This document shows positions 2-18,800 of a stretch of DNA of 20,137 nucleotides, piece after piece (positions within the stretch are counted from its first letter, which is position 1; every line of letters starts with the position of its first letter). The notes beneath the pieces were generated by a model that made no database searches, was not told the origin of the DNA, and saw only the letters and a program-made list of their open reading frames with translations. The DNA is from a virus. Position numbers and translations under genes: made by a program. The DNA lies in the IMG/VR virus record IMGVR_UViG_3300030107_002661, positions 22,618 to 42,754 of that record. One strand, given 5' to 3'.

Positions 2-3000
2 CAGGACTTCTCTTATGCTGTTAAATCTGCTGTTTCTATCAGCGATTGGAAAGAGATCCTTATTAAGAACGTTCACCCCGCATCATTTAAAGTATTTGGT
101 GAATTAAACCTTAATGAATATGGTGAAATTCCTAACAAAGAGACATTTTTCCAACTTACTAAGTCTGTTGAACTTGCACAGGAAGCGATTGTTCCTAATA
201 TTCAAAACTTTGCTCTTGTTGAACCAATTTACTCTGAGTTTAATAATACAGAAGTACTATTCAGACAGAAGAGATTAACATCTTCTGAGAATATTCTAAC
301 TTCTGTTGTACAACGTTTGGATGATATTTCTTCATTATTTGATGGTGAAAGAATTGCATTCCCTCTAACTGTTGATAGTAACAACGTTGTTGCTAATGCT
401 AATCAGTTAATGATTGTTCTTAACGGTGTTGTTCAGAACCCAGAAACTGCATTCCAGATTCAGCAAGACTCTATTGTATTCTCTGAACCTCCACAACCAC
501 CTGCAAGTGTTAAGTATGCAAATATTACTGTTAACCAGATTCAGACAGTTAAATTAACATTCACTAATATTAGTGGAATATTCCCTTCTGTTGGTAATCA
601 ATTAGTTGGTTCTAGTTCTGCTGCTAAATTAACAGTAACTTCAGTTGTTGGTAATGATATATTTGGATTTATTACTGATGGCACATACATTATTGGAGAA
701 TTGGTAAATGTTAGTGCAACTGGTTTCTCTGCTACTTTAGAATCTCAATCTAATGTTACAAATATTGGATTATTCGTATTTAATGAGAATATCACTAACT
801 TAACTGGTGATACAGCAAAGGTAGAACAGATTAACTTAGAAAGAGGTCAAGAAACTCCACTTGCTAAACTTCGTTATTCAGTTGGTACATCTACTACTGA
901 TGTTGAACTTGTTCCTGTAACTGGTGCTGAAGCAGCACTTCCTGCTAATACATTTGCAGTAACTAAGAAATATCAGTTTGGATCAGAAATATTCCTAGTT
1001 AATAGTATTACTGATAATGCTAGTTCCACAACTCTTGGTGTAACTAGAGCACAGGATGGTACTTCTGCAGTTGCTCAATTACAAGATACTCCTGTTTATG
1101 GTACTGATATATTAGTTACTGATAAACTAACATTAAGTAAAACTGCTGGTACTTATCAATCTACTCCTGGTTTATTTGATATTCAATTAAATGATTACAT
1201 TATTGGTGCTGCATCTGGAGTTGTTGCTCAGGTAACTGCAACTTCAGCATATCAAGATCCTACAACTAATGAATTTATCGGACAGGTTAATATATCTGAA
1301 GGATCATCATTCTTTGGTTTATTATTCAACAGAATTACATCAACATCTTATCCAAACGTAGTTTTAGATGATATTTCTAAATCTCAGATTAGTATTGTTG
1401 ATTATACTGATAATACTACTTCCTTCGACTTAAGTTTCCCTGCTAATGAGCAGATTAATAACTTTATTCTTCCATACGACAATAAAGTTGGAACTTTCTC
1501 TGAAGGTGAGAATATTAGAAATTATAAGATTGACTATGGTAATAATAGTGGAGATTTTACTGCTACTGAAAATGCTAGAGTTAGAAAATTATCATTTACT
1601 GATAAGCAAGGTACTGGATTCTTTAATACTGGACAAGTAATTAGAACAAGAGATACTAAGGCTGAAGTTATTGGATTCAATCAAGCACGTAGTATTGTTT
1701 ATCTTGGAAAAATTGGTAGGACATTAGCAACTGGTAAAGATTATTTTGATTTCAAATTTAACGGAAATGCACAATTAGATACTGCTCAGAAGAAGTATGG
1801 TACTACATCACTTTTACTTGATGGTGCTAATGATTATGTTAGAAATACTTTAAATCAAGCAGAACTTGCTTTTGGTACTGGTGCTCTTACTGTTGAATTT
1901 TATGTTCGACCAACTGCTGCAGCATTAAGTGGAACTGCAACTCTTATTGATACTAGAGCATCAGGTGCAACTGAAGTTGCTCTTAGATTATATCTACAGG
2001 CAGGTCAAATTCGTTGGAATGTTAATGGATCTGATCTTGTAAACTCTGGTGCTACAACACTTTCTGCTGATACTTGGTATAACATCACTTATGTTAGATC
2101 TAGTACTACAGGTAAGATTTACTTAGATGGTGTTGAAGTAGGAACTGGTACTGATAGTTCTACATATGTTGCTAAACCAATTACTATTGGTGCTGACTAT
2201 GCTAATATTAATGGATTTACTGGTCATATTGACGAATTAAGAATATCTAACACTAACAGATATAACGCAGCATTCACTCCTGTTGTTGGTATTTTCCAAG
2301 GAGATGCTAATACAAAAGTACTAGTTCACTTTGATGGTATTGATAAACAGACCTTTACTGAAGATTGGTCTGGTGCTGAAGGATTTACAAATGGAGAATT
2401 CTTCAATAATGATGCTATTGCTTCATCTTCTCGTTTTGCTGGAGTTCATACTTATACTGGTGGAACATCAACAAATGCTATTACAATAACTGCTGGTAGT
2501 GTTCAAAAAGATGTAACTGCTGCCACATACAATCATGTATCTGGTGATTTAGAATTAACGATTGGATCTCATAGTTATACAACTAGTGATACATTAACTA
2601 TTGGTGCTGATAAATTATCATTTACTTGTGCTTTAGATGCTAATGCTACTACTCATACATATCCAAGATCAACTGATCCAGCATTCCTTACTGCATTAGC
2701 AATTTCATCTGTAACATCAACAACGGTTACAGTTAATGTTGGTGCTGCAGGAGCTCCTCGTGGATTCGTAGGTAACTCACAGAGATATTATAATGCTGCT
2801 GATTTGATTGTAGCAAATAAAGAATTTATTGCTAAAGAGACAGTATATCTTGTTAATCAGAAATTCCCTAATTTCACTACTATTAACGGTGATGCTAACT
2901 GTGAAGATGATGTTAAAGACATTTTAGATGCTCTTGTAGGTGACCTTCGTAATGGTGGTAATAATAAGATTTGGGATGCATCAGCACTTTATGTTGATAG

Positions 3001-6000
3001 AACAGATACTAATAATATTAAACTTAATCATGTAGAGACTGAAATTAATGAGACTATCTGGGCATATGGTAAAGCAAATGAAATTGTTGAATATATTGCT
3101 ACTAATAGTATTTGGGATATCCAAGGTGATCATGGATTGCTTCAGAAGACAGATACTACAATTACTGATTCTTCTAACCCAACATACACTCAAGTAACTC
3201 CAACAGGAGCAGAATATACTGCTTCTACTGGTGAATTAAAGATGACTGTTTCTGGTCATGGTTTAGTTGGTCCATCAGCATTAACAGCAACAGGAGCAAC
3301 TTATAATGCTTCTACAGGTGTTTTGGTTGTTACATCTAATGGTCATGGTCTTGTAAATGGCGATAAAGTTCAACTTGAAGATAATTCATTAACATTCACT
3401 TGTTCGATGGATGATAATCGTACAGAACATACATATCCAAGAATTTCTGATCAAGCAAGTACTGGTTGGATGGAAGTTTCTAATAAGACTACTAACACAT
3501 TTGAAATTAATGTTGGTAAGTCTCCTCTAATCGTTTATAACCCAACTGGTGCAACTTATGATGGTACAACTGGATACCTTAAGATGCAAATTGGTGATCA
3601 TATATTGACACCTAAGACTAACATTAGAATGGCTAAAGAATCCTTATCATTTAAGTGTTCTATGGACGGTCTTCAGGCTACTAAGAAATATCCTAGAACT
3701 GTTGATTCGATTTACGATAAGTCTATACCAATCTTATTTGATGGTGAGTTACATACCGCATCTGGAGCATCTTATGTTCCAACAACAGGTAAGATGACTA
3801 TTACTTGTGGTAGAGGTTTAACTCCTACAGATGTATCATACGTAGCGTCTGCTGGTGTGATGAAAGTTACTGTCCCTAATCATGGATTAGTAAATGGAGA
3901 TAACGTAAGAATTTCTGATAATGCATTAACATTCACTTGTGGAATGGATGATCATTATAGTGAGCATAGTTATCCAAGATCTACTGATCCTAAGAGTGGA
4001 TTATCTATAGCAGTTTCTGGTGTAACTGCAAACACATTTGATATTAGTGTTGGAACTTCACCTATCGTTGCTCTTACACCTAATAGTGGATCCTATGATC
4101 CAACAACAGGTATGATGACCTTAGGATTCCCAACTAATCATAATCTTAGTGCTGGAACAAGTATAAGACTTAAGAAAGAATCCTTGAAGTTTAGTTGTGC
4201 ATTTGGTGGTGCTTCTGGCGATGCTGCTATTAAGTCATATCCAAGAACAACTGACCCATTTTATAGCAATTCACTTCTTATTGAATCAGTAACAAATACA
4301 ACTATTACTGTACAAGTTTTAACTACAGTTCCTTCTACTAATACAGACGCACATACTTTCGTTTCTGCAGACACAGGAGCAGTAACTACTGGTGGTGATT
4401 ATGTACATAAATTTGTTCGTGCTGTTACTAACGGTATTACTACACCTAAGCATGGATTTGCTAATAAAGATAGAATTAAGATTACTGATGGATCTTTAGT
4501 ATTTGATTGTGGTCTTGATGGTAATTCTACTGAGCATTCTTATCCAAGATCAACTGATCCTTATAGTGGAAGATGGTTATCTATCTCTAATGTAACAGAT
4601 CTAACTTTTGATGTAAATGTTGGTATTTCACCAGACACATCAGTTCATACTTTCAAATCTGCTGCTCCAAATGGTATTGTTAAACGTGATGGTAGCATAA
4701 CACTTGATATTGGTAAGTCACCCCAAATTGGATACGATCTTACTACTGCAACTTATGATGCTGCAACTGGTGATATGGTACTTACTGTTGCTGGAAGTCA
4801 CAATTTAACAACTGCTGGTGCTCTTCAGATTGCAGACAACGGTCTATCATTTACATGTACTATGGATGGTAATGCAACCACACATAGTTATCCAAGATTA
4901 ACTGATCCTGCACGTAAGAATGCACTTAAGATTAAGGCTGTTGGTACTTCAAATCTAACTGCAGCTGCTGGTACAACATATAATCCTACAACAGGTGTTC
5001 TTTCAATTACATCTAATGGTCATGGATTAACTGCAGCAACAACTAAGTCTGTAACTGATGCACAATATAATCCTGGAAATGGAAATCTAATATTAACAAG
5101 TGCTGCTCATGGATTTGTTAATGGTGATAGAGTAAAAATTGCTGACAATTCACTTACATTTACATGTGGTAAGGACAATCATGGTTCTACCCATACATAT
5201 CCAAGATCAACTGATCCTTCAAGTAATGCTTGGTTATTTGTTCAAAATGTTAGCACTAATAAGTTTACAGTTAATATTGGTAAGTCTCAAGACTTATCTG
5301 CTCATAGATTCATCTCTGCTACATCATCAAACATAAAGAAAGCAGAAGATGCAGTTAAATTTGATAACGAATCTTTAAGATTTACATGTGTTAAGGATAG
5401 CAACGGTAGCAACCATGATTATCCAAGAGCAACAGATCCTGTTGCTAATCAATGGATTCCTATTGATAGCAAAACTACAAATACATTCGATGTATTCGTT
5501 GGTAAGGCAAATGATGATAGTGCTGGTACTCATACATTCGTTTCAGCAGTTTCTAATGGAATTAAAAAGCAAACTGGTACAGTTACAGTTAACGTTGGTA
5601 TAACACCTACTACAACATATAATCCTTCTGCTGTCACATATACACCAACTACAGGTGATATGGCGATGACAATCGGTACTCATTATCTTCGTGGTGGATC
5701 AACACATACAGCATCTAATGCAACTTATGATGCTGGAGATGGTCTACTAGAAATTACTGTTGCAAATCATGGATTCTCAGTTGGTGATAGAGTTAAGTTT
5801 GCTGCTGACTCTCTTACATTCACATGTACGATGGATGGAAATACTTCTCAGAAGACTTATCCAAGAACTACAGATCCATCTTACAACAAGTATTTGGCAA
5901 TTACGAAAGTAACTGACAATACATTTACAGTTAATGTTGGAACTTCACCTATCGTTAATTACAACGTTAGTGCTGCTACATACGATCCAACATCAGGTGA

Positions 6001-9000
6001 TCTACAAATGACGATTGGATCACACTCATTTGATATTGGTGATAGCATCAAACTTGCTGATAATTCATTAACCTTCACTTGTGATTATAATAGTGATGGT
6101 AACACAACCAATAAGACCTACCCAAGGTCTACAGGTGCCTCTACAACAGGTAATAATGGTGCTGACTATGCATATAATACTGCATTACCTATTACAGCAA
6201 AAACTGCTACTCAGATTACAGTTAATGTGAACGGTGGACAGGGTGCTATTACAGATACTACTGCACATAACTTTGTTTCTGCAACTGCTGGTGCAGTAAT
6301 TACTGGTGGTGATTATGTACATACATTTGTACAGGCTTCAACTGATGGAATTACTAGAGCAGGTGATTCTATAAGACTTTCTAAAGAATCTCTAACATTC
6401 ACTTGTGATTATAACGGTGATGGTAACTCTACTAATAAGTTCTATCCTCGTTCAACTGGATCTAACTATCCAGGTGGTGCTGACCCAACTTACAATACTT
6501 CTACTCCAGTTCAAAATGTAGGTACTTCAAATCATACAGTAACTGCAGCAACATATGCTCCTACTACTGGAGTTATGACTCTTACTGTACCTGCTCATGG
6601 ATTTACTTCTTCCACAAATCATACAGTAACTGGAGCAACCTTTAATACCACAACTAGCATATTGAAATTAACTATTGCTGGTCATGGATTTAATGAAGGT
6701 GATAGGATTAAACTTAATGACGGATCATTAACATTTACTTGTAGTTTGGATAGTAACGCATCTAATCATGCTTATCCAAGATCAACTGATCCTATTAGTG
6801 GAAAATGGTTACCTATCACTAACGTAAACACAAATACTTTTGAGGTTAATGTTGGTAATTACTTCTTCGGTCAGTCAGCAATTTCCAATTCTTCTACACA
6901 CGCATTTGTTTCAGCAACTACTAATGGTCTTATTAAGGCGAATGATGCTGTTAAACTAGATGCTGAGTCAATAACATTTACATGTGCTAAAGATGCTAAT
7001 GCTTCTGATCATCAATATCCAAGACGTAGTGATCCTTCTTTCCAAGAATGGCTTCCAATCTCCAATATAACTCAGAATACATTTGATGTTAATGTTGGAC
7101 GTTCTAGTGATACTAGTGCTCATACATTCAAATCTGCATATGCAAATGGTCTTAAGAGACAAACTGGTGTAATTACAGTTAATGTTGGTATTTCTTCAGA
7201 TACAACCACACATAACTGGGTTGCTCCAACTAAATTAACACCTACTAATGCTGCATACAACCCAACAACGGGTGTTATGACTATTACAGTTAATGGTCAC
7301 GGTATGGAAAATGGTGAACAGATTAAGATTGATGATAGTGCTATTAAGTTAAGTTGTGCATTCGGTGGAGCATCAGGTTCTGCTGCACAGAAAGATTATC
7401 CAAGATCTACAGACCATGCTAGTGGAAGATGGTTAACAATTTCTAACGTTGCTACAAATACATTTGATGTTCAAGTTCTAGCATCTGCTCCTTCCACCAA
7501 TACAGATACTCATTCGTTTGTATCTGCTGTTGCTAATTCTATTACTAGAGGTATAATAAGAACTGGTGGTATTTACACACATACGTTTGTAAGTGCTAAG
7601 AAAAATGCTTTAGTTACAGGTGGTAGTTATCAGCATGAATTTATTGCTGGTACTAATTCATATACACCTTCTACTGCTGGATATGTTCCTGCAACAGGTG
7701 TTCTTACATTAACTATTAAGAATCATGGGTTTGAAAATGGAGATGCAATTAAACTTACTCCTAATTCATTAACATTCTACTGTGCAACTGGAGGTTCTGG
7801 TCAACCTAAGACTTATCCTCGTGCATTAGGTACTGGTGCAAATGCTGGATCTGCTGACCCTGCATATGATAATTATCTAATTATCTCTAACGTTACCACA
7901 GATACATTTACAGTTAACGTTGGAACTTCATCAGATACAACAACTCATACATTTGTTTCTGCTACATCCAATTGTGTTACTAGAGCAATAATACATACAG
8001 GTGGTGATTATGCACATACCTTCGTTTCTGCTGTTGCAAACGGTATTAAGAAACAAGGATCTGCAATTTCTATTGCTGCTGATGCTTTAAGATTTACATG
8101 TGATATTGACGATAATGCTACTAATCATGATTATCCTCGTGCTACAGACCCTGCTGCTAATTCAGCGTTAGCAATTACTAAGTACGATACAAATACATTT
8201 ACAGTTAACGTTGGTAAATTCATTCCTGGTACTGGAAATACGTTTGATACGTATAAGGAATTAACTCCAACATCTGCAACTTATGATCCTGCAAATGGAA
8301 ACTTAGTTATTAAGATTCCTAGTCATGGTTTAACAGTAGGTGATAAGATCACGATTGATGATGAATCTTTAGCATTCACATGTACGATGGATAGTGGACA
8401 ATCTACTAAGTATTATCCTCGTGACAATCATGATACACGTGCTTCTGGTAGAGAACTTGCTATTACTGCAGTAGATACTGGTGAATCAACAGCAGCAGAA
8501 GATCAGACAATTACAGTTAACGTTGGTGCTGCAGGTACAAATGTACAGTTTACTCCTAGTGCAGCAACATATGATGCTGAAACTGGTGAGATGACCTTAA
8601 CAATTGGTCAGCATGGTATTCGCCAAGGATCAAGTATTACTATTGCCAACTCTGGATTGAAGTTTACTTGTGGAATGGATGGTAATAGTTCTCAGAAAGA
8701 TTATCCTCGTGCTACAGATCCTTATGGTGGAACTAAGTCTATTCCTGTTACCCATGTAGGACACACACATCATACTGCTACTGGTGCTGCTTACACACCT
8801 GCAACTGGTGTTATGGTTATTACTAGTGCATCTCATGGATTCTCTAATGGTGATTATATTCAGATTGTTGATGAATCTTTGACTATGAGATGTGGTCTGG
8901 ATGGAAATACAACAGATCATGCATATCCTCGTAAAGGATTTGATTATCCAAGTGGAAGATGGTTGATCGTTTCTAACGTTGCTACTGATACTTTCCAAGT

Positions 9001-12000
9001 TAATGTTGGTATTTCTTCAGATACTTCTACTCACGTATTCAAATCTGCTAAAACAAAAGGCATCCGTAAGCAAAGTGGTGTAATTACAGTTAATGTTGGT
9101 GCATCACCAATTAAGGGATTTGATGTACAAGCTGCAACATATAACCCAACTTCGGGTGATATGGTTCTTACTATTGGTAATCACGGATTAACTACAGGTA
9201 CTAATATTAAACTTGCTAAAGAGTCTCTTATCTTCACTTGCGATTACAATAGTGATGGTAATACAACTCAGAAGAAGTATCCTCGTTCAAGTAGCGACTA
9301 TGTTTATAATATTCCTGTTGCCATTACTGCAACATCCTCTACCACAATTACTGTAAATGTTAATGGTGGACAAGGAGCAATTACTGATACAACAGTACAT
9401 AACTTTGTTGGTACAGTTAATCAATACACACCAACAGCAATATCATATAACCCAACAACGGGTGTTATGACTGTGACTGCTAATGGTCATGGTATGGTTA
9501 ATGGTGAACATATTAAGATTGCTGATAACTCACTTACATTTACTTGTGCTCATGATAGTGATGCTACTCAACACACATATCCTCGTGTAACTGATCCTGT
9601 AAGTAATAAGTGGATTCCTGTTTCTGGTGTAACTACAAATACATTTGATATTCAAGTTTTAGATTCAGTTCCTTCTACAAATATAACTGCACATAACTTT
9701 GTTTCTGCAACTACTAATTGTATTACAAGAGCAGTAGTTCAGACTGGTGGTGATTACTCACATACATTTGTATCTGCTGTTAGCAACTGTGTTTCTTATA
9801 GTCCAAATACCACACATACATTTGTAAGTGCTGGTTATGGATGTGTTAAGAAAATTCTTAACAGACATACATGGGTTTCTTCAGTAACTAATGGAGTTAC
9901 AGTTCTTGATTACACAACTGCAGATTGTGCAGATGTTCAAAATACTGCTGAGAACTTAATGAATATCCTTACGGATACTCTAACTGCTGCAAATGCTGCT
10001 GTACCTACAGATTACTTGGGAACTTTAAGGAAAAACGAACCTCCATTTGAATTCCTTGGTGGTAAAGTAGATACTTATTTTGAAGTTCCGTTCCCAGTAT
10101 CTTATCATGATGCTGCTACTGATATCATATACACAAATCAGATTGATGAGACTACTCTTGATAGATTCCGTGATGCTGCCAATTTACTACGTGCAAATTC
10201 TGGTCCTATTGTAGACAAAGCATCATTTGATATGCTTAATAGATATCCAGATCTTGCTCTAGAAATGCCTAGAAATACTGATGGATCTGGTAATGGTACA
10301 TTACAATGTAAGACAGATTTAGCATTAATTCTTCAAGAGTTTATTAAAGATATTGAGGTTGGTGGTAACTTTAATACAATTAATGTTGCTAAGTTCTACC
10401 TTGGTACTAATGACGAGATACAACATATTCGTCTACAATTATTCCAGTCTGTATATGCTCATGAACGTCTTGGCGTTTACATGAAGCAAGCAATTACAGG
10501 TGATCTTGATTACACAAATACTGATGATATTATTGTTGGTGACTGGGGTATTACAAATGATGGTGGTGGATGTGCAAACGTCAAGACTGCTATTGATAAC
10601 TTAATTACTGCTGTTAATGATCTTATTGCTCCTACATCTTTAGATTATGCTACTGCTGCTGATAGACTTTACTTTAACAGAAAGTATATCGCAGAAGAAA
10701 TTACTGGACTTACTACTGCAGAATTTACATATCCTCTCAATAATGTTAACTATAGTGCCTTTAATTATCCTGATGGTGCTAATGGTGAAGCAACATGCCA
10801 GAGAGATTTAAGACTTATTATCTTAGGAATTATTTCCGACTTACAAACAGGTGGTACTAATAGTACAATTTCTGCAATTGAAAAATATCTTGATTCACAA
10901 GGACAAATATCTCAAGTAGAGACTGAACTTCTTGCTACATTATATTCTATCGATCAACTTAAGATTATGTGTCAGAGAGCTGTTAAGAACGTACTTTACG
11001 ATCTTAATAGTGGACAGACTGATCCTAATTATGCTGCTCTTTATACAGACGAAACTGCATATAGAGACACTATAACTCCAACAAATATTCAAGTAGTGGT
11101 TGATAGGATTGGGGTTTTGGTTGATATTGCTGTTAATATTCTTGCTCCTGGAAAAGATGTTTCTAGAAGTGCTGCTAAGAATATTCTTTATAATAACAAC
11201 TACTATAAAGAAGAGATTACAACTATTGTAAATACTCAGTTTGGTGCTGGTTCTTGGACATATAACACATTTATAGATGAGTTAGTTTTAGACCTTGTTC
11301 ATGATATTATCACAACTGATGTAACAGATACTGCAATTGCATATAACGTTACTATTCAAGATGTTGTTGGTACATTTACCGTAGGTGAATTGATATTCGC
11401 TGATAATGGTGGAACTGCAAAAGTTCTAGAATTTAATCCTGAAAATAACTTCTTAGTTATTGGAAACTTTACTGGATCACCTTGGGGAATAGCAGATAGA
11501 ATAGAGGGTTATACTTCTAGTGCTCAAGCAGTCGTTTCTACTGCTGCTGTAAGTGGTGCTTATGTTTGGTACAACACTCCTGGAAATGTTAAGACTCTTG
11601 CTACTGCTAGAAATATTACTTCTAATATTACTGGACAGATTTCTGGTACGAACTTATATACTAACCCAGAAAAACATACAATTAATTGGGTTGGTAGTGA
11701 ATTAGTAATTACTGATGATGTGATTGCTTCTCCAGACTTTACAGTAACTGCTGAAAAATTAGCAGCATCTACAGTATCTGGTCTTCATGTTTTATACAGA
11801 GATTATAATCTAACAGCATTTGATACTTTTGATGATGAAAATATCAAGTGGGATGATACCACTAATAAATTTGATGAAGGTGCTATAAGTATTGATTCTG
11901 ATACTCAGCAATTTACATTCTCTGTTTTTGTTAAAGGTGCTGAATATACATCAATTAGATTGAAGATAACTCTTGATGATGGTACTGCTGCTGAACAGAA

Positions 12001-14545
12001 TGTATTCTTTGATTTAAATCTTGCTAACGGAACTACTGGATCTGTATTCACACCTCAGAATGGTATGACTGCTGATGCATATGGTGCTGTTCCTTATGGT
12101 GATGGATGGTATAGAGCATATATTACAACCACATTCTCCTTTGGTTTCACCTCAGCGAGAACTAAGGTTCAGGTTAATAATGCAACAGGACAACAATCTT
12201 ACGTAGGTAATGGTACTGATGGATTGTATGTTTGGGGTTCTAAACTCAATAAAAATGTTTTAGATCCTTACACTTCTGGTATCAATAAAGTATTCTATGC
12301 TGATTCTGAGTACAACATTAAGACATACGCACTTAATCTTCTTGAAGAATATACAATTAAATCACTTGATAATACTCTAACTTCACCTTCTACAAATTCA
12401 AGTTTCTATAAATTCTTTGATTCTGCAGTAGCAGGAAAATATGATAAAGATTCTATTAGTAGAATTGTTCGTTATCTACTTGATATTATTAGAAAACAGT
12501 TAGCAATTGATACAACTTATACAACTATAACAACTAATACCAATCTTACTGTTCCAGCTAAGACATATGGAACTAGATCTATAACAACTGGTGTAGGTGG
12601 TGGACTTGCTTCTGCTGATTTCATATATGGTCTTCAAAGTAACAACTATGCAGAATTAGAAAAAATAACTCTTAATGAAGGTGAGATAGTTAAGATCTAT
12701 CAAAGATTCCGTATTGATGGTGACATCACAGATGGTCCTTTCACCATGAATGAAGTAGTTACTAAGCAAGGTAACGCATCAATTACTGGTAAGGTTTATG
12801 GATTCTGGCAAGATGCCAACTATAAGTATCTTGATGTAGAGGTTACTGCTGGTCCTTGGGCAATTACTGATACCGTTGTTGGTGCAAGTAATTCTACAAC
12901 TGCTCAGATTAGTGCTATTGAAGATCGCATACAAATTGTTGATCTTAAGGGTACATTTACTAATGATATTCCATTCAGAGGATATACAAGTGGTGCTACT
13001 GCATTACCTACAGGATTCCTGAAGGCAGAGGCAGCAATCCTTGATAATACTGGTGGTACTCTAACAGTTGATACTGAAACTCTTGCGGGTACATTTGAGA
13101 CAACTGCAGTTGTTTATCCTTCAGAATCTAGGAAGTATCTTGATGTTATTAAATATGCTGGTCTTGATGTTTCTGTTGGTGATCAAATCGCTTCTGCAGG
13201 TAATGTAAGACTTGGTTTAACTATCATTAGTGGTCTAAATGTCTTTACTGTTGGTAACAGACTTTATAAGATTACTGGTGGTGTACAAGATTTGAATACT
13301 TACGCTATCATTTCTGAAGTTGATATTGCTAATAACTTCATTTACGTAGTTGAATATCAGGGTACACTTACTAACGGTGATACAGTTGGTGATTATGGAA
13401 ATACATCCTTCCCAGTTGGTTATGCAACTATCGCAACTAAGGTTTCAACTGCGGGTGCTGCTGCTGCTCGTGTACAAGATATACGTACCATAGGTGTTAA
13501 TAAGAGATTATATCTAAGTGGTGTTGCTGGAACATTTGATCTTAAGGATGGTGTTATTGGACCTGATGGTTACAAGTCAGTTATATCTGCTCAGGTAGAT
13601 CTTAAGGCACGTGTTAAGCGTTCCTTCAAAGGATTTGATGGCACTACAACATCATTTAAACTATCACAACAAAATGGTACTCAGTATCTTCCAGATCCCG
13701 CAGGACATTTGATGGTATTCGTTAATGGTATTCTACAACCTCCAGGTGCTTCTAACGCATACACAGCGTTCTCAGACACTATACAGTTTACAGAGGCACC
13801 AGATCTAGGAGCATCCTTCACAGGATTCTACGTAGGTAAGTTGAGACAGTTAGATGATATTTCATTCGAGTTTGACTCCTTACGTCAGTCATTTAACCTC
13901 AAGCGTAACGAAGTATTCTACTCACTAACGCTAACTGACGGTGTTCAGTCATCCACAATACGTCCAGAAAACAATATCATCGTTTCTCTAAATGGTGTTA
14001 TTCAGGAACCAGGCGTAGGTTTCGAGATTGTTGGTTCTAGAATTATCTTCTCTGAGATTCCTCGTGTGGGATCCACATTCGTAGCATTCTCTTATGTTGG
14101 TTCTGAAGCAGACGTTGATGCTGCTGAAGTTGTACCTCCAATTGAACCTGGTGACTTTATTGCAATTCAAGGTGAGACTTCAGACAGAGAAGTTGCTGTT
14201 ATTGAATCTTCAAACTCATTAATCACATTTGATTATCTTGGATCTGTATTCGGGCAAGATGCAAAAGCACAAGCAGCGATTACTTCTGGATTCATTAGTG
14301 ATGTACAAATCACTTCTGGTGGTTCTGGATATACTTCTAGACCAACCGTAAGGATTGACTCTATATCTGGTTTTGAGGGTTCTATTCGTGCTCTAGTTGG
14401 TGTTGCTGGAGTTGAATTGAGTAATGCTGGTACAGGATATAAGAACCCTGACGTAGTGGTTGAGACTGTAGTTCCAGATGATTGGACTGCACCTGATCTT
14501 AGCCTATACGGTGAAGAGTTAATAGATCCTGAAGTCTTACCGTAA
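2..14545 (+). CDS. Giant repeat-rich virion structural protein (tail fibre/baseplate), 5'-partial
   Basis: The frame is open from the first complete codon at nt 2 to TAATAA at 14543-14548, giving 4847 visible residues with the start outside the window. The visible N-terminus (QDFSYAVKSAVSISDWKEIL, then NVHPASFKVFGE) resembles a conserved segment of large structural proteins in T4-like marine phages, so it is real coding sequence. Domains by residue from nt 2: FDG/VNGxxQ module about 106-178; beta modules 180-575; LamG-like 580-780; YPR unit 1 about 834-918; helical domain 927-1055; YPR units 2-22 about 1060-3300; helical copies 3300-3780; jelly-roll-like 3882-4092; beta modules; FDG/VNGxxQ modules 4542-4705; GxGY module about 4763-4823. 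No frameshift or signal peptide was seen. The giant size, modular lectin-like domains and position before a gp8-like gene suggest an outer baseplate or fibre protein, perhaps in the slot of gp7. The structural class is fairly secure; the exact role is inference. Confidence 0.85.
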   Translation, partial: QDFSYAVKSAVSISDWKEILIKNVHPASFKVFGELNLNEYGEIPNKETFFQLTKSVELAQEAIVPNIQNFALVEPIYSEFNNTEVLFRQKRLTSSENILTSVVQRLDDISSLFDGERIAFPLTVDSNNVVANANQLMIVLNGVVQNPETAFQIQQDSIVFSEPPQPPASVKYANITVNQIQTVKLTFTNISGIFPSVGNQLVGSSSAAKLTVTSVVGNDIFGFITDGTYIIGELVNVSATGFSATLESQSNVTNIGLFVFNENITNLTGDTAKVEQINLERGQETPLAKLRYSVGTSTTDVELVPVTGAEAALPANTFAVTKKYQFGSEIFLVNSITDNASSTTLGVTRAQDGTSAVAQLQDTPVYGTDILVTDKLTLSKTAGTYQSTPGLFDIQLNDYIIGAASGVVAQVTATSAYQDPTTNEFIGQVNISEGSSFFGLLFNRITSTSYPNVVLDDISKSQISIVDYTDNTTSFDLSFPANEQINNFILPYDNKVGTFSEGENIRNYKIDYGNNSGDFTATENARVRKLSFTDKQGTGFFNTGQVIRTRDTKAEVIGFNQARSIVYLGKIGRTLATGKDYFDFKFNGNAQLDTAQKKYGTTSLLLDGANDYVRNTLNQAELAFGTGALTVEFYVRPTAAALSGTATLIDTRASGATEVALRLYLQAGQIRWNVNGSDLVNSGATTLSADTWYNITYVRSSTTGKIYLDGVEVGTGTDSSTYVAKPITIGADYANINGFTGHIDELRISNTNRYNAAFTPVVGIFQGDANTKVLVHFDGIDKQTFTEDWSGAEGFTNGEFFNNDAIASSSRFAGVHTYTGGTSTNAITITAGSVQKDVTAATYNHVSGDLELTIGSHSYTTSDTLTIGADKLSFTCALDANATTHTYPRSTDPAFLTALAISSVTSTTVTVNVGAAGAPRGFVGNSQRYYNAADLIVANKEFIAKETVYLVNQKFPNFTTINGDANCEDDVKDILDALVGDLRNGGNNKIWDASALYVDRTDTNNIKLNHVETEINETIWAYGKANEIVEYIATNSIWDIQGDHGLLQKTDTTITDSSNPTYTQVTPTGAEYTASTGELKMTVSGHGLVGPSALTATGATYNASTGVLVVTSNGHGLVNGDKVQLEDNSLTFTCSMDDNRTEHTYPRISDQASTGWMEVSNKTTNTFEINVGKSPLIVYNPTGATYDGTTGYLKMQIGDHILTPKTNIRMAKESLSFKCSMDGLQATKKYPRTVDSIYDKSIPILFDGELHTASGASYVPTTGKMTITCGRGLTPTDVSYVASAGVMKVTVPNHGLVNGDNVRISDNALTFTCGMDDHYSEHSYPRSTDPKSGLSIAVSGVTANTFDISVGTSPIVALTPNSGSYDPTTGMMTLGFPTNHNLSAGTSIRLKKESLKFSCAFGGASGDAAIKSYPRTTDPFYSNSLLIESVTNTTITVQVLTTVPSTNTDAHTFVSADTGAVTTGGDYVHKFVRAVTNGITTPKHGFANKDRIKITDGSLVFDCGLDGNSTEHSYPRSTDPYSGRWLSISNVTDLTFDVNVGISPDTSVHTFKSAAPNGIVKRDGSITLDIGKSPQIGYDLTTATYDAATGDMVLTVAGSHNLTTAGALQIADNGLSFTCTMDGNATTHSYPRLTDPARKNALKIKAVGTSNLTAAAGTTYNPTTGVLSITSNGHGLTAATTKSVTDAQYNPGNGNLILTSAAHGFVNGDRVKIADNSLTFTCGKDNHGSTHTYPRSTDPSSNAWLFVQNVSTNKFTVNIGKSQDLSAHRFISATSSNIKKAEDAVKFDNESLRFTCVKDSNGSNHDYPRATDPVANQWIPIDSKTTNTFDVFVGKANDDSAGTHTFVSAVSNGIKKQTGTVTVNVGITPTTTYNPSAVTYTPTTGDMAMTIGTHYLRGGSTHTASNATYDAGDGLLEITVANHGFSVGDRVKFAADSLTFTCTMDGNTSQKTYPRTTDPSYNKYLAITKVTDNTFTVNVGTSPIVNYNVSAATYDPTSGDLQMTIGSHSFDIGDSIKLADNSLTFTCDYNSDGNTTNKTYPRSTGASTTGNNGADYAYNTALPITAKTATQITVNVNGGQGAITDTTAHNFVSATAGAVITGGDYVHTFVQASTDGITRAGDSIRLSKESLTFTCDYNGDGNSTNKFYPRSTGSNYPGGADPTYNTSTPVQNVGTSNHTVTAATYAPTTGVMTLTVPAHGFTSSTNHTVTGATFNTTTSILKLTIAGHGFNEGDRIKLNDGSLTFTCSLDSNASNHAYPRSTDPISGKWLPITNVNTNTFEVNVGNYFFGQSAISNSSTHAFVSATTNGLIKANDAVKLDAESITFTCAKDANASDHQYPRRSDPSFQEWLPISNITQNTFDVNVGRSSDTSAHTFKSAYANGLKRQTGVITVNVGISSDTTTHNWVAPTKLTPTNAAYNPTTGVMTITVNGHGMENGEQIKIDDSAIKLSCAFGGASGSAAQKDYPRSTDHASGRWLTISNVATNTFDVQVLASAPSTNTDTHSFVSAVANSITRGIIRTGGIYTHTFVSAKKNALVTGGSYQHEFIAGTNSYTPSTAGYVPATGVLTLTIKNHGFENGDAIKLTPNSLTFYCATGGSGQPKTYPRALGTGANAGSADPAYDNYLIISNVTTDTFTVNVGTSSDTTTHTFVSATSNCVTRAIIHTGGDYAHTFVSAVANGIKKQGSAISIAADALRFTCDIDDNATNHDYPRATDPAANSALAITKYDTNTFTVNVGKFIPGTGNTFDTYKELTPTSATYDPANGNLVIKIPSHGLTVGDKITIDDESLAFTCTMDSGQSTKYYPRDNHDTRASGRELAITAVDTGESTAAEDQTITVNVGAAGTNVQFTPSAATYDAETGEMTLTIGQHGIRQGSSITIANSGLKFTCGMDGNSSQKDYPRATDPYGGTKSIPVTHVGHTHHTATGAAYTPATGVMVITSASHGFSNGDYIQIVDESLTMRCGLDGNTTDHAYPRKGFDYPSGRWLIVSNVATDTFQVNVGISSDTSTHVFKSAKTKGIRKQSGVITVNVGASPIKGFDVQAATYNPTSGDMVLTIGNHGLTTGTNIKLAKESLIFTCDYNSDGNTTQKKYPRSSSDYVYNIPVAITATSSTTITVNVNGGQGAITDTTVHNFVGTVNQYTPTAISYNPTTGVMTVTANGHGMVNGEHIKIADNSLTFTCAHDSDATQHTYPRVTDPVSNKWIPVSGVTTNTFDIQVLDSVPSTNITAHNFVSATTNCITRAVVQTGGDYSHTFVSAVSNCVSYSPNTTHTFVSAGYGCVKKILNRHTWVSSVTNGVTVLDYTTADCADVQNTAENLMNILTDTLTAANAAVPTDYLGTLRKNEPPFEFLGGKVDTYFEVPFPVSYHDAATDIIYTNQIDETTLDRFRDAANLLRANSGPIVDKASFDMLNRYPDLALEMPRNTDGSGNGTLQCKTDLALILQEFIKDIEVGGNFNTINVAKFYLGTNDEIQHIRLQLFQSVYAHERLGVYMKQAITGDLDYTNTDDIIVGDWGITNDGGGCANVKTAIDNLITAVNDLIAPTSLDYATAADRLYFNRKYIAEEITGLTTAEFTYPLNNVNYSAFNYPDGANGEATCQRDLRLIILGIISDLQTGGTNSTISAIEKYLDSQGQISQVETELLATLYSIDQLKIMCQRAVKNVLYDLNSGQTDPNYAALYTDETAYRDTITPTNIQVVVDRIGVLVDIAVNILAPGKDVSRSAAKNILYNNNYYKEEITTIVNTQFGAGSWTYNTFIDELVLDLVHDIITTDVTDTAIAYNVTIQDVVGTFTVGELIFADNGGTAKVLEFNPENNFLVIGNFTGSPWGIADRIEGYTSSAQAVVSTAAVSGAYVWYNTPGNVKTLATARNITSNITGQISGTNLYTNPEKHTINWVGSELVITDDVIASPDFTVTAEKLAASTVSGLHVLYRDYNLTAFDTFDDENIKWDDTTNKFDEGAISIDSDTQQFTFSVFVKGAEYTSIRLKITLDDGTAAEQNVFFDLNLANGTTGSVFTPQNGMTADAYGAVPYGDGWYRAYITTTFSFGFTSARTKVQVNNATGQQSYVGNGTDGLYVWGSKLNKNVLDPYTSGINKVFYADSEYNIKTYALNLLEEYTIKSLDNTLTSPSTNSSFYKFFDSAVAGKYDKDSISRIVRYLLDIIRKQLAIDTTYTTITTNTNLTVPAKTYGTRSITTGVGGGLASADFIYGLQSNNYAELEKITLNEGEIVKIYQRFRIDGDITDGPFTMNEVVTKQGNASITGKVYGFWQDANYKYLDVEVTAGPWAITDTVVGASNSTTAQISAIEDRIQIVDLKGTFTNDIPFRGYTSGATALPTGFLKAEAAILDNTGGTLTVDTETLAGTFETTAVVYPSESRKYLDVIKYAGLDVSVGDQIASAGNVRLGLTIISGLNVFTVGNRLYKITGGVQDLNTYAIISEVDIANNFIYVVEYQGTLTNGDTVGDYGNTSFPVGYATIATKVSTAGAAAARVQDIRTIGVNKRLYLSGVAGTFDLKDGVIGPDGYKSVISAQVDLKARVKRSFKGFDGTTTSFKLSQQNGTQYLPDPAGHLMVFVNGILQPPGASNAYTAFSDTIQFTEAPDLGASFTGFYVGKLRQLDDISFEFDSLRQSFNLKRNEVFYSLTLTDGVQSSTIRPENNIIVSLNGVIQEPGVGFEIVGSRIIFSEIPRVGSTFVAFSYVGSEADVDAAEVVPPIEPGDFIAIQGETSDREVAVIESSNSLITFDYLGSVFGQDAKAQAAITSGFISDVQITSGGSGYTSRPTVRIDSISGFEGSIRALVGVAGVELSNAGTGYKNPDVVVETVVPDDWTAPDLSLYGEELIDPEVLP
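314..535 (+). repeat. FDG/VNGxxQ module, N-terminal copy
   Basis: This segment of the giant protein reads LDDISSLFDGERIAFPLT, followed by LMIVLNGVVQNPETAFQI and a hydrophobic IVFSEPP strand. It matches two copies near the C-terminus of the same protein (13625-14116), which share the LDDIS lead-in, the FDG or FDS turn, the LNGVxQxPG core and the I-x-FSE ending. The module is a beta-rich block I recognise from marine T4-like tail proteins; its function is unknown to me. Having the copies at opposite ends of a protein of about 4850 residues is the notable point. Confidence 0.7.
1739..2340 (+). other. LamG/concanavalin A-like lectin domain within the giant CDS
   Basis: Residues about 580-780 follow the LamG_3 pattern. 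A lead strand DYFDFKFNGNAQLDTAQKKY is followed by SLLLDGANDYVR, then LTVEFYVRP, TLIDTRASG, the central WYNITYVRSSTTGKIYLDG, the GFTGHIDELRISN signature and a closing VLVHFDG. The order of these motifs is characteristic of the concanavalin A-like jelly-roll family, whose members often bind carbohydrate and are common in phage receptor-binding and fibre proteins. Binding to host surface glycan is inference; the fold call is fairly safe. Confidence 0.8.
2501..2757 (+). repeat. Isolated first YPR unit of the giant protein
   Basis: This is a complete unit: ATYNHVSGDLELTIGSHSY, then LSFTCALDANATTHTYPR (Tyr codon at 2660), STDP, and the closing TTVTVNVGAAGAP. It matches the consensus of the main array (3181-9905) but is separated from it by a helical domain of about 130 residues. 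It therefore sits directly after the LamG region and before helical copy 1. Confidence 0.85.
2780..3165 (+). repeat. Helical domain copy 1
   Basis: Residues about 927-1055 are predicted helical from composition and heptad-like spacing. Key pieces are RYYNAADLIVANKEFIAKE, KFPNF, then NCEDDVKDILDALVGDLRNG and a tail KLNHVETEINETIWAYGKA. The same pattern (AADxxxxNxxxIxxE, then CxxDVxxILxxxxxDLxxGGN, then an aliphatic helix) recurs at 10160-10500 and 10640-11010, and more weakly further on. It contrasts with the beta-rich modules on both sides. Its function is not recognised; it may be an oligomerisation or spacer element. Confidence 0.65.
3181..9905 (+). repeat. YPR protein repeat array, units 2-22
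   Basis: Twenty-one imperfect units follow unit 1. The Tyr codons of the YPR motif are at 3434, 3689, 3971, 4238, 4541, 4889, 5198, 5420, 5858, 6119, 6443, 6773, 7016, 7397, 7814, 8132, 8414, 8702, 8924, 9278 and 9578. Spacing runs from 222 to 438 nt, averaging about 307 nt (102 residues). A full unit has three modules. A is ATYxPTTGxMxLTIxxHG(L/F)xxGD. B is SLTFTCxMDGNxxxHxYPR, then STDP, LxISNV and TFxVNVG. C is SxDTSxHTFVSAxxNGIxR. Every B module keeps one Cys 15 to 19 residues before the YPR. The copies are divergent in both DNA and protein, so this is old duplication with reshuffling rather than a young tandem repeat. It is probably a beta-rich fibre shaft (inference). Confidence 0.92.
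9906..11340 (+). repeat. Helical domain copies 2-4, after the YPR array
   Basis: The region begins with a half-copy (CADVQNTAENLMNILTDTL). Copy 2 at about 10160-10500 reads RFRDAANLLRANSGPIVDKA, CKTDLALILQEFIKDIEVGG, then IRLQLFQSVYAHERL. Copy 3 at about 10558-11010 reads CANVKTAIDNLITAVNDLI, AADRLYFNRKYIAEEI, CQRDLRLIILGIISDLQTGG, then VETELLATLYSIDQLK. Copy 4, less complete, at about 11100-11330 reads RSAAKNILYNNNYYKEEI and FIDELVLDLVHDIIT. The shared Cys, the D(L/I)xxGG turn and the NxxxIxxE helix match copy 1 at 2780-3165. A further related helical stretch lies near 12310-12510 (YNIKTYALNLLEEYTIKSL; DSISRIVRYLLDIIRKQL). Function unknown. Confidence 0.65.
11645..12275 (+). other. Jelly-roll, carbohydrate-binding-like domain within the giant CDS
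   Basis: Residues about 3882-4092 show the pattern of a phage tail jelly-roll module. A strand QQFTFSVFVKGAEYTSIRLK is followed by FFDLNLANGTTG, then the conserved GDGWYRAYITTTF, a long strand ARTKVQVNN and the closing GLYVWGSKLN. The GDGWYR and GLYVWGxxL signatures are common in phage fibre and appendage proteins with a carbohydrate-binding-like fold. The ligand is unknown. It interrupts the helical stretches on either side, again suggesting domain insertion. Confidence 0.6.
13625..14116 (+). repeat. Two adjacent FDG/VNGxxQ modules near the giant protein's C-terminus
   Basis: The first copy (13625-13849) has FKGFDGTTTSFKLSQQNGTQ, LMVFVNGILQPPGASNAY and IQFTEAPDLGASFTGFYVG. The second (13850-14116) has LDDISFEFDSLRQSFNLK, IIVSLNGVIQEPGVGFEI and IIFSEIPRVGSTFVAFSYVG. 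Both align with the N-terminal copy at 314-535, and the second copy shares its LDDIS lead-in. From about 13600 the DNA uses visibly more C-ending codons (TTC, TAC, AAC) than the repeat array. Confidence 0.75.
14288..14475 (+). repeat. GxGY module at the C-terminus of the giant protein
   Basis: DVQITSGGSGYTSRPTVRI is followed, after a short alternating stretch, by GVELSNAGTGYKNPDVVV. This paired 'V-x-I-x-x-(G/A)GxGYxxxPxV' pattern is a beta-rich module common in marine phage tail proteins. Related modules occur three times in the protein encoded at 15810-19979. Its function is not known to me. Confidence 0.65.
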
Positions 14546-14579: not shown

Positions 14580-15806
14580 ATGGCTAAGCAAGCTCTAAAT
14601 TTAGGTTCAACAGCTAACGACAACACAGGGGATACTCTGCGAGGTGGTGGCGATAAAATTAATGATAATTTTAATGAACTCTATACTGCAATCGGCAACG
14701 GTTCTAGTTTGACTGTTAGTGTTACTAACCCTGCTGTTGGTCAAGTATTGCGTTATAATGGATCAACTTTCTTACCGTCTGATTATACTAATTTGACGGC
14801 AGGATTGGATGTTAATGGTAATTCTATTGTTTCAAGTTCTAATGGAAATATAGTTATTGCACCGAATGGAACAGGTAATGTAACTATTTCTAATGGTACT
14901 ACAACTAGCACATTTAATGGTACAGATAATACCATTGATATGCCGACCAAAGTTAAATATAAAAACGAATATTCCGCATTAGGATCCGCACCTACTGCAG
15001 CAACATATACAGGTTATTTTTTCACAGTTGATGGTGATGATAATCCATATGTAAACATTAATATTACTGCTGGTGGTGCTGGAGATGTAAGAGCAAAACT
15101 AGCAACTCAGTATTCTAGTATTGATCTTTTAGCAGACGTTGATACAACAACTGCTGCACCTACAAACAATCAAGTTTTAAAATGGAGTTCTACTTCTAGT
15201 AAGTGGGTTCCTGCTGCTGATGATTCGGGTATATCATCAATTAATTTATTCTCTACAGTTGCATCTGATGCAGGATCAACAACTGCAAATAGTCAATCTG
15301 ATACATTAACTATTGCTGGTGGAACGAATATTAGTACTGCTATTACTGGTGATACAGTAACAGTTAACTTTGATGGAACAATAACGACAACATTTGCTGC
15401 TCTAACAGATACAGATGTTACTGGTATTACTCAAGGTGATTCGTTATTCTTTAATGGAACAAATTGGTCTATAGTACGTAGTCCAATTACTTGGTGGGAA
15501 ATTAATGCTAATGGATCGTCTGATTATACCTTTAACGGACCAGGATTTTCTGCAGCAACAAATGACCCAACCATTTATGTACATAGGGGATTTACTTATG
15601 CTTTTGATAATTCTGTTCAGGGTGGTGCTCATCCTTTCAGGATTCAAAGCACTCAAGGTTTAAGTGGTACTCCTTATACAACTGGACAAAGTGGTAGTGG
15701 AACTACAGTTCTTTATTGGACTGTCCCTATGGATGCTCCGACCACTCTTTATTATCAATGCACACTCCATGCTGCGATGCAAGGAACAATTAACGTAGTA
15801 GCATAA
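14580..15806 (+). CDS. Virion structural protein with C-terminal cupredoxin-like domain
   Basis: The protein has 408 residues. The ATG is the first start after an in-frame TAG at 14571; no convincing Shine-Dalgarno sequence precedes it. The N-terminus (NLGSTANDNTGDTLRGGGDK, INDNFNELYTAIG) matches a motif at the start of many marine T4-like tail/baseplate proteins. The middle (about 45-300) is Thr/Ser/Asn-rich beta sequence with NGNIVIAPNGTGNVTI and DTVTVNFDGTIT stretches typical of fibres. The C-terminus (about 305-408) is cupredoxin-like: a HRGFTYAFD strand, His351 (GAHPFRIQ), a TVPMDAPTTLYYQC strand with Cys394, then His397 and Met400. His, Cys-x2-His and Met is a type-1 copper ligand pattern. 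Copper binding is inference; in known cupredoxins the Met usually lies slightly further on. The gene ends in tandem stops (TAATAG) directly before the next ATG. Confidence 0.82.
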   Translation: MAKQALNLGSTANDNTGDTLRGGGDKINDNFNELYTAIGNGSSLTVSVTNPAVGQVLRYNGSTFLPSDYTNLTAGLDVNGNSIVSSSNGNIVIAPNGTGNVTISNGTTTSTFNGTDNTIDMPTKVKYKNEYSALGSAPTAATYTGYFFTVDGDDNPYVNINITAGGAGDVRAKLATQYSSIDLLADVDTTTAAPTNNQVLKWSSTSSKWVPAADDSGISSINLFSTVASDAGSTTANSQSDTLTIAGGTNISTAITGDTVTVNFDGTITTTFAALTDTDVTGITQGDSLFFNGTNWSIVRSPITWWEINANGSSDYTFNGPGFSAATNDPTIYVHRGFTYAFDNSVQGGAHPFRIQSTQGLSGTPYTTGQSGSGTTVLYWTVPMDAPTTLYYQCTLHAAMQGTINVVA

Positions 15807-15809
15807 TAG

Positions 15810-18800
15810 ATGACAAGGACAGTACCTGGAACTGGAGCTCTAATCGAACCAATTTTCGATGAAATATTTGGTGTAAGGGCAGTTAAAGTAAAAAATGGGG
15901 GTTCTGGATATGACCCTGCTGATCCTCCACGTCTAACAATAACTGGATGTGGTACTCCTGATGAAGCCGCACTTCTTTATCCTATTATCGATACAGATTC
16001 GGGAAAGATTATACACGTTCGTGTTTTGAATAGAGGTAAGGGATATGATCCTTTAAGACTTCAAATAATTCCAGAGCAAGAAACTCCTAATGTAGTTAAT
16101 TCTTTTGATATTAAAAGAATTTGGCAGACACATCCAAATAGTCCTACTACAGCAACGTTTGATGGCACAACTGATAGACTAAGAATAGTATCTGATAATG
16201 ATCCTAAACCAACTGTTATTGATACAGAAAGAGTTCCTGGTGGTGGTCCATTAACTGATAGAACTTTTAATCAACAATTTGTATACAGAGGCGGTAAAGA
16301 CGTTCCTAATCCTGGTACTAGAGAAGCACAACCAGATAAGGTTATGGGTATTATGGCAAACGGAGGTTTGCTGCATACTCCAGAATGGGGGCAAGATGGA
16401 AGTCCACCTCCAGGATTTGCTATTGATAGTGTAAAGTATCCTTATATTAAAAATAATACTTCAGCAGATGCTGTAATAGAAAGTGGTAATTATTATTATC
16501 AGTCAAGTAGACTTATAAGTGAGTGGGATGATACTAATGGTGTATTTGAATGGGGTAAGTTAAAGCAGTTTACTTGGAATGTAAAAGTTGAATTTGATAA
16601 TATAATGCTTGATGTTACTGGTGTTGATGAGACATTAGGGCAAATTGAAGTTGGTAGAATAGTTGATGAGATATCTGGTACTGGTAAAGGTGAAGTTACT
16701 AAAGTTGTTAGAAATGGATTAGGTGTAGTTACAAGAGTATACTTAAGACAAACTACAGGTAGTTTTGCAGAAAATGATCTCTTTTTGGGATCGACAGGAT
16801 TTAGTTTTAAGGTATCTCAAACACCAACTCTCCTAACAAACGGTATTTTTTATATTGATTTTGGTACAGATTCTACAGAATTTGGTCCATTCGTATCAGG
16901 ACAATATTACTTTGCACCACAAGATATTAAGGTTCAAAGAAATTATTTAATTATTTGGAATCAGTCAGATAGTACTAATGGTGTAACTGGTACTCATCCT
17001 AATGGGCATCCTATGCAGTTTAGTACAACTGCTGATGGTTTATTAAATGGTGGTACTCTTTACTATGATAGTACTGGTGTAACAGAAGCACCTTCTACTG
17101 ACTATGAGAATGAATTCCAACCGTTATTCATAATGAATGCGGATGAGAGTAATCGCATTTATTATTACTGTAAGTATCACAGATACATGTCTGGATACGC
17201 TGGAGATGAAGGATATATTAGTTTTGATTCAACGATTGATAATGATCCTCCAGTTAATGATTATTATGTTACTGGTTATTATCAGAGTGATGCAAATGAT
17301 CCTGCTACCATAGATTATTCTAGACATACAGATGGACATTCTAAAATTTTAGGTATGTCCTATGATGGGTATCCAATTTATGGACCTTATGGATATAATT
17401 CTAGTGGTACTGCTGCTAGAGAGGTATCTGGATTTAGATTAAAGAGTGGTGTTGAGATCGATGGTTCTAGACCAACTGCAATTACTGCTGGAAATGTAAC
17501 TTATGTCGTAACTGTTTCTAATGGTAAGTTTTTATATGATGGATCTACTCCTTCATTTTTAGAATTAAAAAGAGGTAAGACATATATCTTCCAACAAAAT
17601 GATGCTAGTAATCTTAGTCAACAATTATTGATAGGTAATATTGAAGATGGATGGCATGGTGCTGATCCTGTAATTATTGGTGATACATCAAAACTCTGGA
17701 CACAGGGAGTAAAGTATTATATTGGAGGTTCTGAAGTAACTTATACCTCATATTTAAGTGGATTTAATGGTGCAGCACAAAGAGAGATTAGATTTACAGT
17801 TCCTGTAAATGCCCCTCCTGCACTTTATACATTTGCTTATACTACTTCTGAGCATGGAGTTAGAACAGTCCAAGATGGATATGTTATGGGTGATTTGGTA
17901 CAAGATTATATTTGGGATACAGCAGTTTCTAATCGTACTCTTGATGCATTTAATGGTAAGTTTGATGTAACTCCAGAATATCCTAATGGAACATATGCAT
18001 ATTATATGACAGAGGATGGTACTGGTGCTCCTGCTTTCCCATATGCAGTTGGTCCTAGATTTTATGGTTCTCCTATATTTGAAGGAGACACATTACCTGC
18101 CCCTGTTACAGTATTCCCTGCAGGTGCAGAGGGAGATGTTGTATTAAAAACTGATGGAACTGGAGCAGTAAATTACATCAAAATGTCCCAAAAGGGTGAT
18201 AACTATTTTGGTTCTGCTCAAGCAAAAATTCTTGGTGGTGAAGGTAGTGGTGCATTAGGAACTCCTACTGTTCAAACAATTACTGGTCTTTCTTTACTTG
18301 CTACTGGTAGAAGTTATGCAACTCCTCCAACACTAATATTTGAAGGTGGTGGTGGACAAGGTGCTCAAGGTGCTGCTGAAGTTGATACTCTCGGTAAGGT
18401 TACAAATATTGCTATTGTAGATAGCGGTGAATTCTATCAGGAACCTCCTTATATTTTAATTACTGGTGGAGGTGGTATTGGTGCTAAAGCAACTGCTCAA
18501 GTTGCTCAGGGTGCTGTTACTGGAATTACTATTACTGATCCAGGTAGCGGTTATACTCAAGCACCAAATATTGTCTTTACAAAATTAGTACAATTAAAAC
18601 GTAAGACAAGAGCAAGACAGGCATTTAACTCAGTACCAAACTTCTTAACTGGTCTTGTTAAGGATGTTACTGCAAACGATTCAAACATATATGTTGACTC
18701 TACAGATGCTTATCCAGGATCAGGAACTATAATTGTTAATAAAGAGACTATTACTTACACTTCTAAATCTGCAGGTAAATTCTCAGGTTTAACTAGAGGT

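Follow-up and report, generated by a model that had tools for sequence, protein, structure and literature searches.

The stretch of DNA analysed here, called the window throughout, is 20,137 bases long and forms the end of a viral record of 42,754 bases (IMG/VR record IMGVR_UViG_3300030107_002661). Within one giant gene, it carries an array of 22 repeat units, each of which contains a YPR motif and is assembled from short modules known as A, B and C. The array is best explained, with a probability of roughly 0.7, as a lineage-specific expansion of an accessory, plug-in C+A+B barrel in the giant baseplate protein that occupies the gp7 position. A conserved scaffold, formed by a LamG domain and the helical regions D1 and D2, takes such units at fixed slots. 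The units would be gained, lost and exchanged through homologous recombination, either between the repeats themselves or via the conserved scaffold DNA that flanks them. Block duplication would lengthen the arrays, and the copies would then diverge under purifying selection.

The first-pass annotation, made from the letters of the window, had described a 22-unit array in which the number of A and C modules changes from one B module to the next. The array was borne out by a motif count and by profile hidden Markov models (HMMs). There are 22 YPR motifs in a single frame (nt 2657-9575), and HMMs trained on the copies detect 22 A modules, 22 B modules and 20 C modules in the array, at residues 839-3304 only, with B modules scoring 47-82 bits. 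The same models gave zero matches in the remainder of the window open reading frame (ORF), in the reversed array and in 20 shuffles. With HMMs made from two relatives alone, L019 and L038, the window still yields 22 A, 22 B and 19 C modules. The HMMs also recovered the reported absence of A between B8-9, 11-12, 13-14 and 16-17, as well as the repetition of C, which occurs three times after B15 (the third copy being degenerate) and four times after B22. A is doubled ahead of B2, B4, B8, B10 and B13. All the units span window positions 2441-9913; the count of 22 thus stands, but the single uninterrupted array does not, as the layout is 1 + 21, with D1 parting unit 1 from units 2-22. The parts of the array and of its scaffold are as follows:

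1820-2254, + strand: LamG/concanavalin-like lectin domain (PF13385, E 1.8e-21), with slot I empty here
2441-2743, + strand: unit 1 in slot II, a C variant (VHTYTGGTSTNAITI) followed by A and B1 (HMM, module strings)
2744-3196, + strand: helical domain D1, 150 aa, between units 1 and 2 (anchors 3 and 4), with slot III empty here
3203-9913, + strand: slot IV array, units 2-22, holding 21 B, 21 A and 20 C modules (HMM)
4334-4624, + strand: C, C, the HG-tail of A, and B6, an example without a full A (module strings)
4922-5599, + strand: three-unit block, the end of unit 7 with AA-B8-C-B9-C, duplicated at 6497-7171 as the end of unit 12 with AA-B13-C-B14-C (self-alignment)
6614-6976, + strand: single unit A, B13, C, modelled alone, with nine strands across A, B and C
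6884-7099, + strand: C then B14, an example without A, with C in the place of A (module strings)
9914-10600, + strand: first part of D2, the conserved helical region that follows the array (alignment of relatives, anchors)

Several intervals of the array have a less regular make-up. The interval from B5 to B6 lacks an A and has just two C modules joined to the tail of one (KHGFANKDRIKI); B5 itself does possess an A, a low-scoring one (YDPTTGMMTLGFPTNHNL). In units 6, 9, 14 and 20 (window 4628-4741, 5528-5626, 7103-7243 and 9014-9130), C is succeeded by a fourth element, QTGVITVNVG, with the general form (Q/R)TG.ITVNVG, which looks like a copy of the last B strand. That final strand is missing in B3 (3638-3733), B7 (4838-4960), B12 (6386-6541) and B19 (8654-8776), where A follows directly. 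For B3, B7 and B12, the A that follows is doubled, as if the extra A were standing in for the missing strand. The module strings are to be read with the HMM cut-offs in mind, which overlook some degenerate A and C modules, and a string such as A-41-A conceals a B.

The three modules are closely tied to one another in the relatives, of which 80 were taken from IMG/VR along with annotated phages. In 216 of the 234 cases, A and B lie 7-9 aa apart. When the partner ahead of B was examined for the 238 distinct B modules with enough preceding sequence, it was found to be A in 190 and C in 39, and inspection of the remaining nine revealed a degenerate A or C. In the cases without A, the C ends in ...TNGIxKAGDxIxL, as against ...HGLxNGDxIxL for A, and so C occupies the position of A ahead of B. 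Hybrids of the two also exist, with C joined to an A tail, for example HQFVSATAGAVILGHGFSVGDRIKI. B is the core, and A or C gives the strand and turn ahead of it.

An AlphaFold2 model of one A-B-C stretch (window 6614-6976), based on 104 aligned units, reached a pLDDT of 88.6 and a pTM of 0.81, with strands in all of A, B and C. A longer model of four units (404 aa) was all-beta with a pLDDT of 83. A, B and C are accordingly modelled as strand groups of one small beta-barrel domain of ~100 aa. A Foldseek search of the PDB with one unit returned the phi92 endosialidase (4hiz; probability 1.00, rmsd 3.4, TMq 0.50), followed by the K1F endosialidase (1v0e) and the E1 FCCH domain (2v31) at probabilities of 0.93-0.98. 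In Pfam, E1_FCCH scored 15.3 bits, below its curated cut-off of 29.5, and End_beta_barrel had a best E of 0.0078, matching 2 of the 104 units. No BACON or Ig family was matched at a significant level in Pfam, the sole Ig-type match being C2-set with a best E of 0.12. A PDB sequence search with 404 aa of the array gave no match. The unit profile also had a weak PDB match to iota-carbonic-anhydrase, which was dropped, as no single aligned segment was significant. A metal site built from the invariant C, D and H was dropped as well, for the H of the A module becomes N in C-B units.

The places at which the units enter the protein were assigned from the module strings of 72 relatives, with D2 and both halves each of LamG and of D1 as anchors. 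Slot I, inside the LamG loop, is occupied in 38 of the 72, and slot II, between LamG and D1, in 23. Units are present inside D1 (slot III) in five and between D1 and D2 (slot IV) in 62. Five long relatives (L063, L065, L067, L069 and L087) have the scaffold without any unit. In many relatives, the content of slot I is one CAB unit in a LamG loop. Slot IV varies in its unit number from 0 to >20; most relatives have either one (AB or ABC) or four there, and the window has 21, along with one unit in slot II. The isolated units read C-A-B in slots I and II and A-B-C in slot IV, which is a circular permutation. The easiest account of it would be that the two ends of the barrel lie close together.

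The same scaffold holds other large inserts too, at residues 2721-3090 of L077, 4058-4443 of L070 and 4398-4797 of L088, some of them within D1. The repeats in these inserts resemble a beta-propeller (FG-GAP-like by eye), and the scaffold seems to accept further plug-in domains. The helical D domain returns at least two more times on the 3' side of the array, in window 10001-14545, where anchor 4 repeats.

In support of the first-pass annotation, related phages do differ in the number and order of their units, and recombination can be seen, both in a cassette that separates L076 from L074 and in single CAB units. Relatives at 88-91% identity differ by single whole units, of exactly 107-108 aa when they lie in slot I and exactly 100 aa when they lie in slot II. 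L076, which has 99.85% nt identity to the phage ACG-2014g, carries the four-B cassette AABCBABABCCC inside D1. L074 is without this cassette, and has 96.7% nt identity to L076 over the 12,025 + 3,520 nt on either side; L078 and L081 likewise lack it. The cassettes of ACG-2014g and S-TIM4 share 84.0% aa identity, against 65.2% before and 55.1% after the cassette. Further, the nucleotide identity changes sharply at the cassette edges, and its rise begins ~40 nt ahead of the first module, in the flanking D1. The high identity of the cassette relative to its surroundings and its sharp edges argue for block exchange between lineages. The cassette is therefore best read as a ready-made block that would have been exchanged horizontally via the flanking scaffold DNA.

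Between L019 and L038, which are 74% identical, whole AB or BC stretches differ. In the window, the block of units 7-9 aligns with that of units 12-14 at 64.6% nt (692 columns) and 51.6% aa identity (223 columns), and further old block duplications pair 15CC with 22CC and unit 6 with unit 20. Copy number, then, does change, by whole domains or blocks and without a shuffling of A, B and C.

Among the nearest relatives, the array is stable. The window, L013 and L014 have an identical module string at 91-92% aa identity and a dS of ~0.25 in the array. The alignments of the window with these two nearest relatives contain one or two single-residue gaps in ~4,846 aligned residues. The copies within the array are old, since its self-alignments reach 77% nt identity at best and Tandem Repeats Finder reported no array here at the DNA level. 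The ratio dN/dS is 0.18-0.21 in the array and 0.16-0.18 in the flanks; owing to this closeness, the array is taken to be maintained, with no overall sign of diversifying selection. The giant genes of five ACG-2014d isolates are all 20,454 bp long and 99.9% identical, with no gaps, which is a weak test given how close the isolates are. A further test of stability, P-SSM4 against P-RSM3, was discarded as the two proteins do not differ: over 7312 aa, gp7 of P-RSM3 from the Red Sea (L012, L101) is 100% identical to that of P-SSM4. For isolates obtained separately this is unexpected, and a mix-up may lie behind it.

It had been proposed from the sequence that A, B and C are independent and recombine at their borders. 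Such free combinatorial assembly finds a basis in the numbers, with A present 0-2 times and C 0-4 times between B modules, and in the C/A hybrid junctions; however, B has a fixed partner at 7-9 aa, the modules fall into one predicted fold, and it is whole units or blocks that are gained or lost, with no module change between 91%-identical phages. In addition, the one exchange breakpoint that could be placed falls ~40 nt beyond the modules, within D1 sequence. The idea is largely refuted, and we consider it quite unlikely. The two outcomes which the annotation had itself named as telling against it, one shared fold and a constant order of modules, were found to differing extents: A, B and C do form one fold in the model, but the order is constant only in the nearest relatives and variable in more distant ones. 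A fast contingency locus, in which copy-number change within a population rapidly varies the surface, was also considered. The gene is indeed repetitive, and when S-TIM4 was evolved in the laboratory, repeat recombination was reported for ORF108, another structural gene (PMC6224464). Nevertheless, the module string shared with L013 and L014 at that dS, the uniform gene length in the ACG-2014d isolates and the low identity of the copies, with no tandem repeat detected, led to its rejection as highly improbable. Least probable of all is that faulty assembly produced the apparent polymorphism of cassette and units. Repeat collapse is possible in metagenome contigs, but each state is present in separate records, the cassette occurs in L076 as well as in the complete ACG-2014g genome and is absent from L074, L078 and L081, and the units of slots I and II are single-copy with unique flanks.

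In the main rival, the units are spacers, a string of beads that determines how long an arm of the baseplate protein is or how far it reaches, such that their number counts and their surfaces do not. Most units keep the fold-defining residues only and are otherwise diverse. The array shows no surplus of amino-acid change over its flanks, and the wide range of unit number in slot IV fits a spacer too. On the other side, many units lie within the loops of LamG and D1 (slots I and III), positions at which they add no length, though this is not decisive, and an endosialidase barrel is among the nearest folds. We regard the spacer as possible, though rather doubtful. The plug-in barrel expansion remains the preferred reading, and certain points do weigh against it. 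The unit dynamics are inferred from relatives, and the window's own clade of three members is without any unit change. Breakpoints within repeats are not exactly placeable, gap positions being arbitrary to within one unit. The strand pairing of A, B and C goes beyond what the model confidence scores and strand positions give. No Foldseek match in the PDB lay at E<=0.001 and the TM-scores were moderate (0.4-0.5); with such weak E-values, the barrel assignment amounts to a fold resemblance and not to homology demonstrated by sequence. Glycan binding and surface exposure of the barrels likewise go beyond the computed results.

As for function, the barrels and the adjacent lectin-like LamG would be displayed around the baseplate. 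Their putative role would lie in low-affinity, high-avidity binding to glycans on the surface of cyanobacteria, and a change in barrel number or type may then tune adsorption or host range. We give this functional proposal slightly less than even odds. A wider suggestion, that four or more fixed scaffold sites take permutable C/A/B barrels as ready-made cassettes between lineages and so help to set host range in the ocean, is advanced only tentatively. Little is known about the genetics of host range in marine T4-like cyanophages; published evolution experiments with S-TIM4 and S-PM2d in the laboratory implicate genes for the baseplate, the tail fibre and other structural parts (PMC6224464, PMC9910659). 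The slots, with whole domains present or absent among near-identical phages, provide a concrete and testable difference; ACG-2014g and its cassette-less relatives are set apart by one clean insertion.

Searches of open-access papers turned up no description of the unit or of its slots. Ig-like domains are promiscuous among phage structural proteins. The nearest published case is the BACON array of crAss-like phages, which also consists of tandem, tail-associated small beta domains, with number and architecture varying by lineage and host-surface binding proposed (PMC6949934). In that study, the order of the repeats was stable in a lineage; one lineage had expanded its array by duplication, others through horizontal transfer. 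The BACON domain, however, has an Ig-like fold, in contrast to the FCCH/endosialidase-like barrel here, and belongs to another gene of other phages. Moreover, it is only for the cyanophage units that positions in loops at fixed slots and permuted CAB/ABC orders are noted. T4 Hoc and other Ig-like strings (PMC10385173) are similar in being accessory beta domains strung on virion proteins and varying among relatives. Unlike these, the cyanophage units are neither Ig-like nor on the capsid, and their carrier is a baseplate-wedge protein. The endosialidase beta-barrel (phi92 4hiz, K1F 1v0e; PF12195) and the E1 FCCH domain (PF16190, 2v31) are the nearest solved folds and weak profile matches. They are single domains, as opposed to the array here, with 10-16% sequence identity and the Pfam curated cut-off unreached.

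The PHROG families 701, 18802, 5342 and 1276 already contain the giant protein, repeats included, and are labelled 'virion structural protein', 'tail fiber protein' or unknown, but the unit, the slots and the cassette exchange are undescribed there. When a phage collection was searched with one unit, 269 records matched, all of them marine phages (cyanophages or marine virus records), in several virion genes. The same search of genome contigs gave a single match, L102 (PBPH01000042.1), labelled as a Euryarchaeota metagenome-assembled genome, into which a phage contig has probably been mis-binned.

The carrier gene and the genes after it in the window are:

2-14545, + strand: C-terminal 4847 codons of the giant gp7-position baseplate-wedge structural protein (ORF, phrog_701, PF23786, gene order)
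14580-15806, + strand: gp9, the wedge to tail-fibre connector (T4_gp9_10_N, PF07880, phrog_677)
15810-19979, + strand: baseplate wedge subunit (phrog_708, T4-GC 399, YHYH domain)

Frame +2 is open across window 2-14545. The giant gene starts upstream of the window, at G000 12046 (L009:9347), and ~8,370 codons were recovered in two pieces. A run of N at G000 ~22606-22617, directly upstream of window position 1, separates the two halves into different frames. A mutation as the cause of this frame break was rejected, for the N run is a scaffold gap and both sides are colinear with P-SSM4 and P-SSM7. The giant protein is matched by phrog_701 over its whole length, in both halves, and by PF23786 (Baseplate_wedge, E 2.5e-7) near its N-terminus; residues 1-3520 share 74% identity with the annotated gp7 of P-SSM4. 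Upstream of the giant gene lie a wedge subunit (phrog_719), a PAAR protein, a heme oxygenase, gp25 (PF04965) and gp6 (PF21379). The order here is gp25, gp6, giant ORF, gp9. Annotated Kyanoviridae have the same order, with the giant gene named either gp7 or virion structural protein. Owing to this gene order, the carrier is taken to be the giant baseplate-wedge protein that holds the gp7 position in a marine T4-like cyanophage, its name deriving from gene order and phrog_701. The simple fibre envisaged in the first-pass annotation was thus not borne out, and no free-standing fibre is indicated. PDB sequence and fold searches returned no structure of this virion.

In the C-terminal region of the giant protein (window 10001-14545), one piece matches the gene transfer agent head-spike fibre Rcc01080 (6tb9, E 2.7e-8). 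The heme oxygenase gene (PF01126) lies at L009:5743-6426, between the PAAR gene and gp25, and P-SSM7 has a 2OG-Fe(II) oxygenase at about that place; the PAAR-gp25 interval of the baseplate genes may be an insertion point for metabolic genes.

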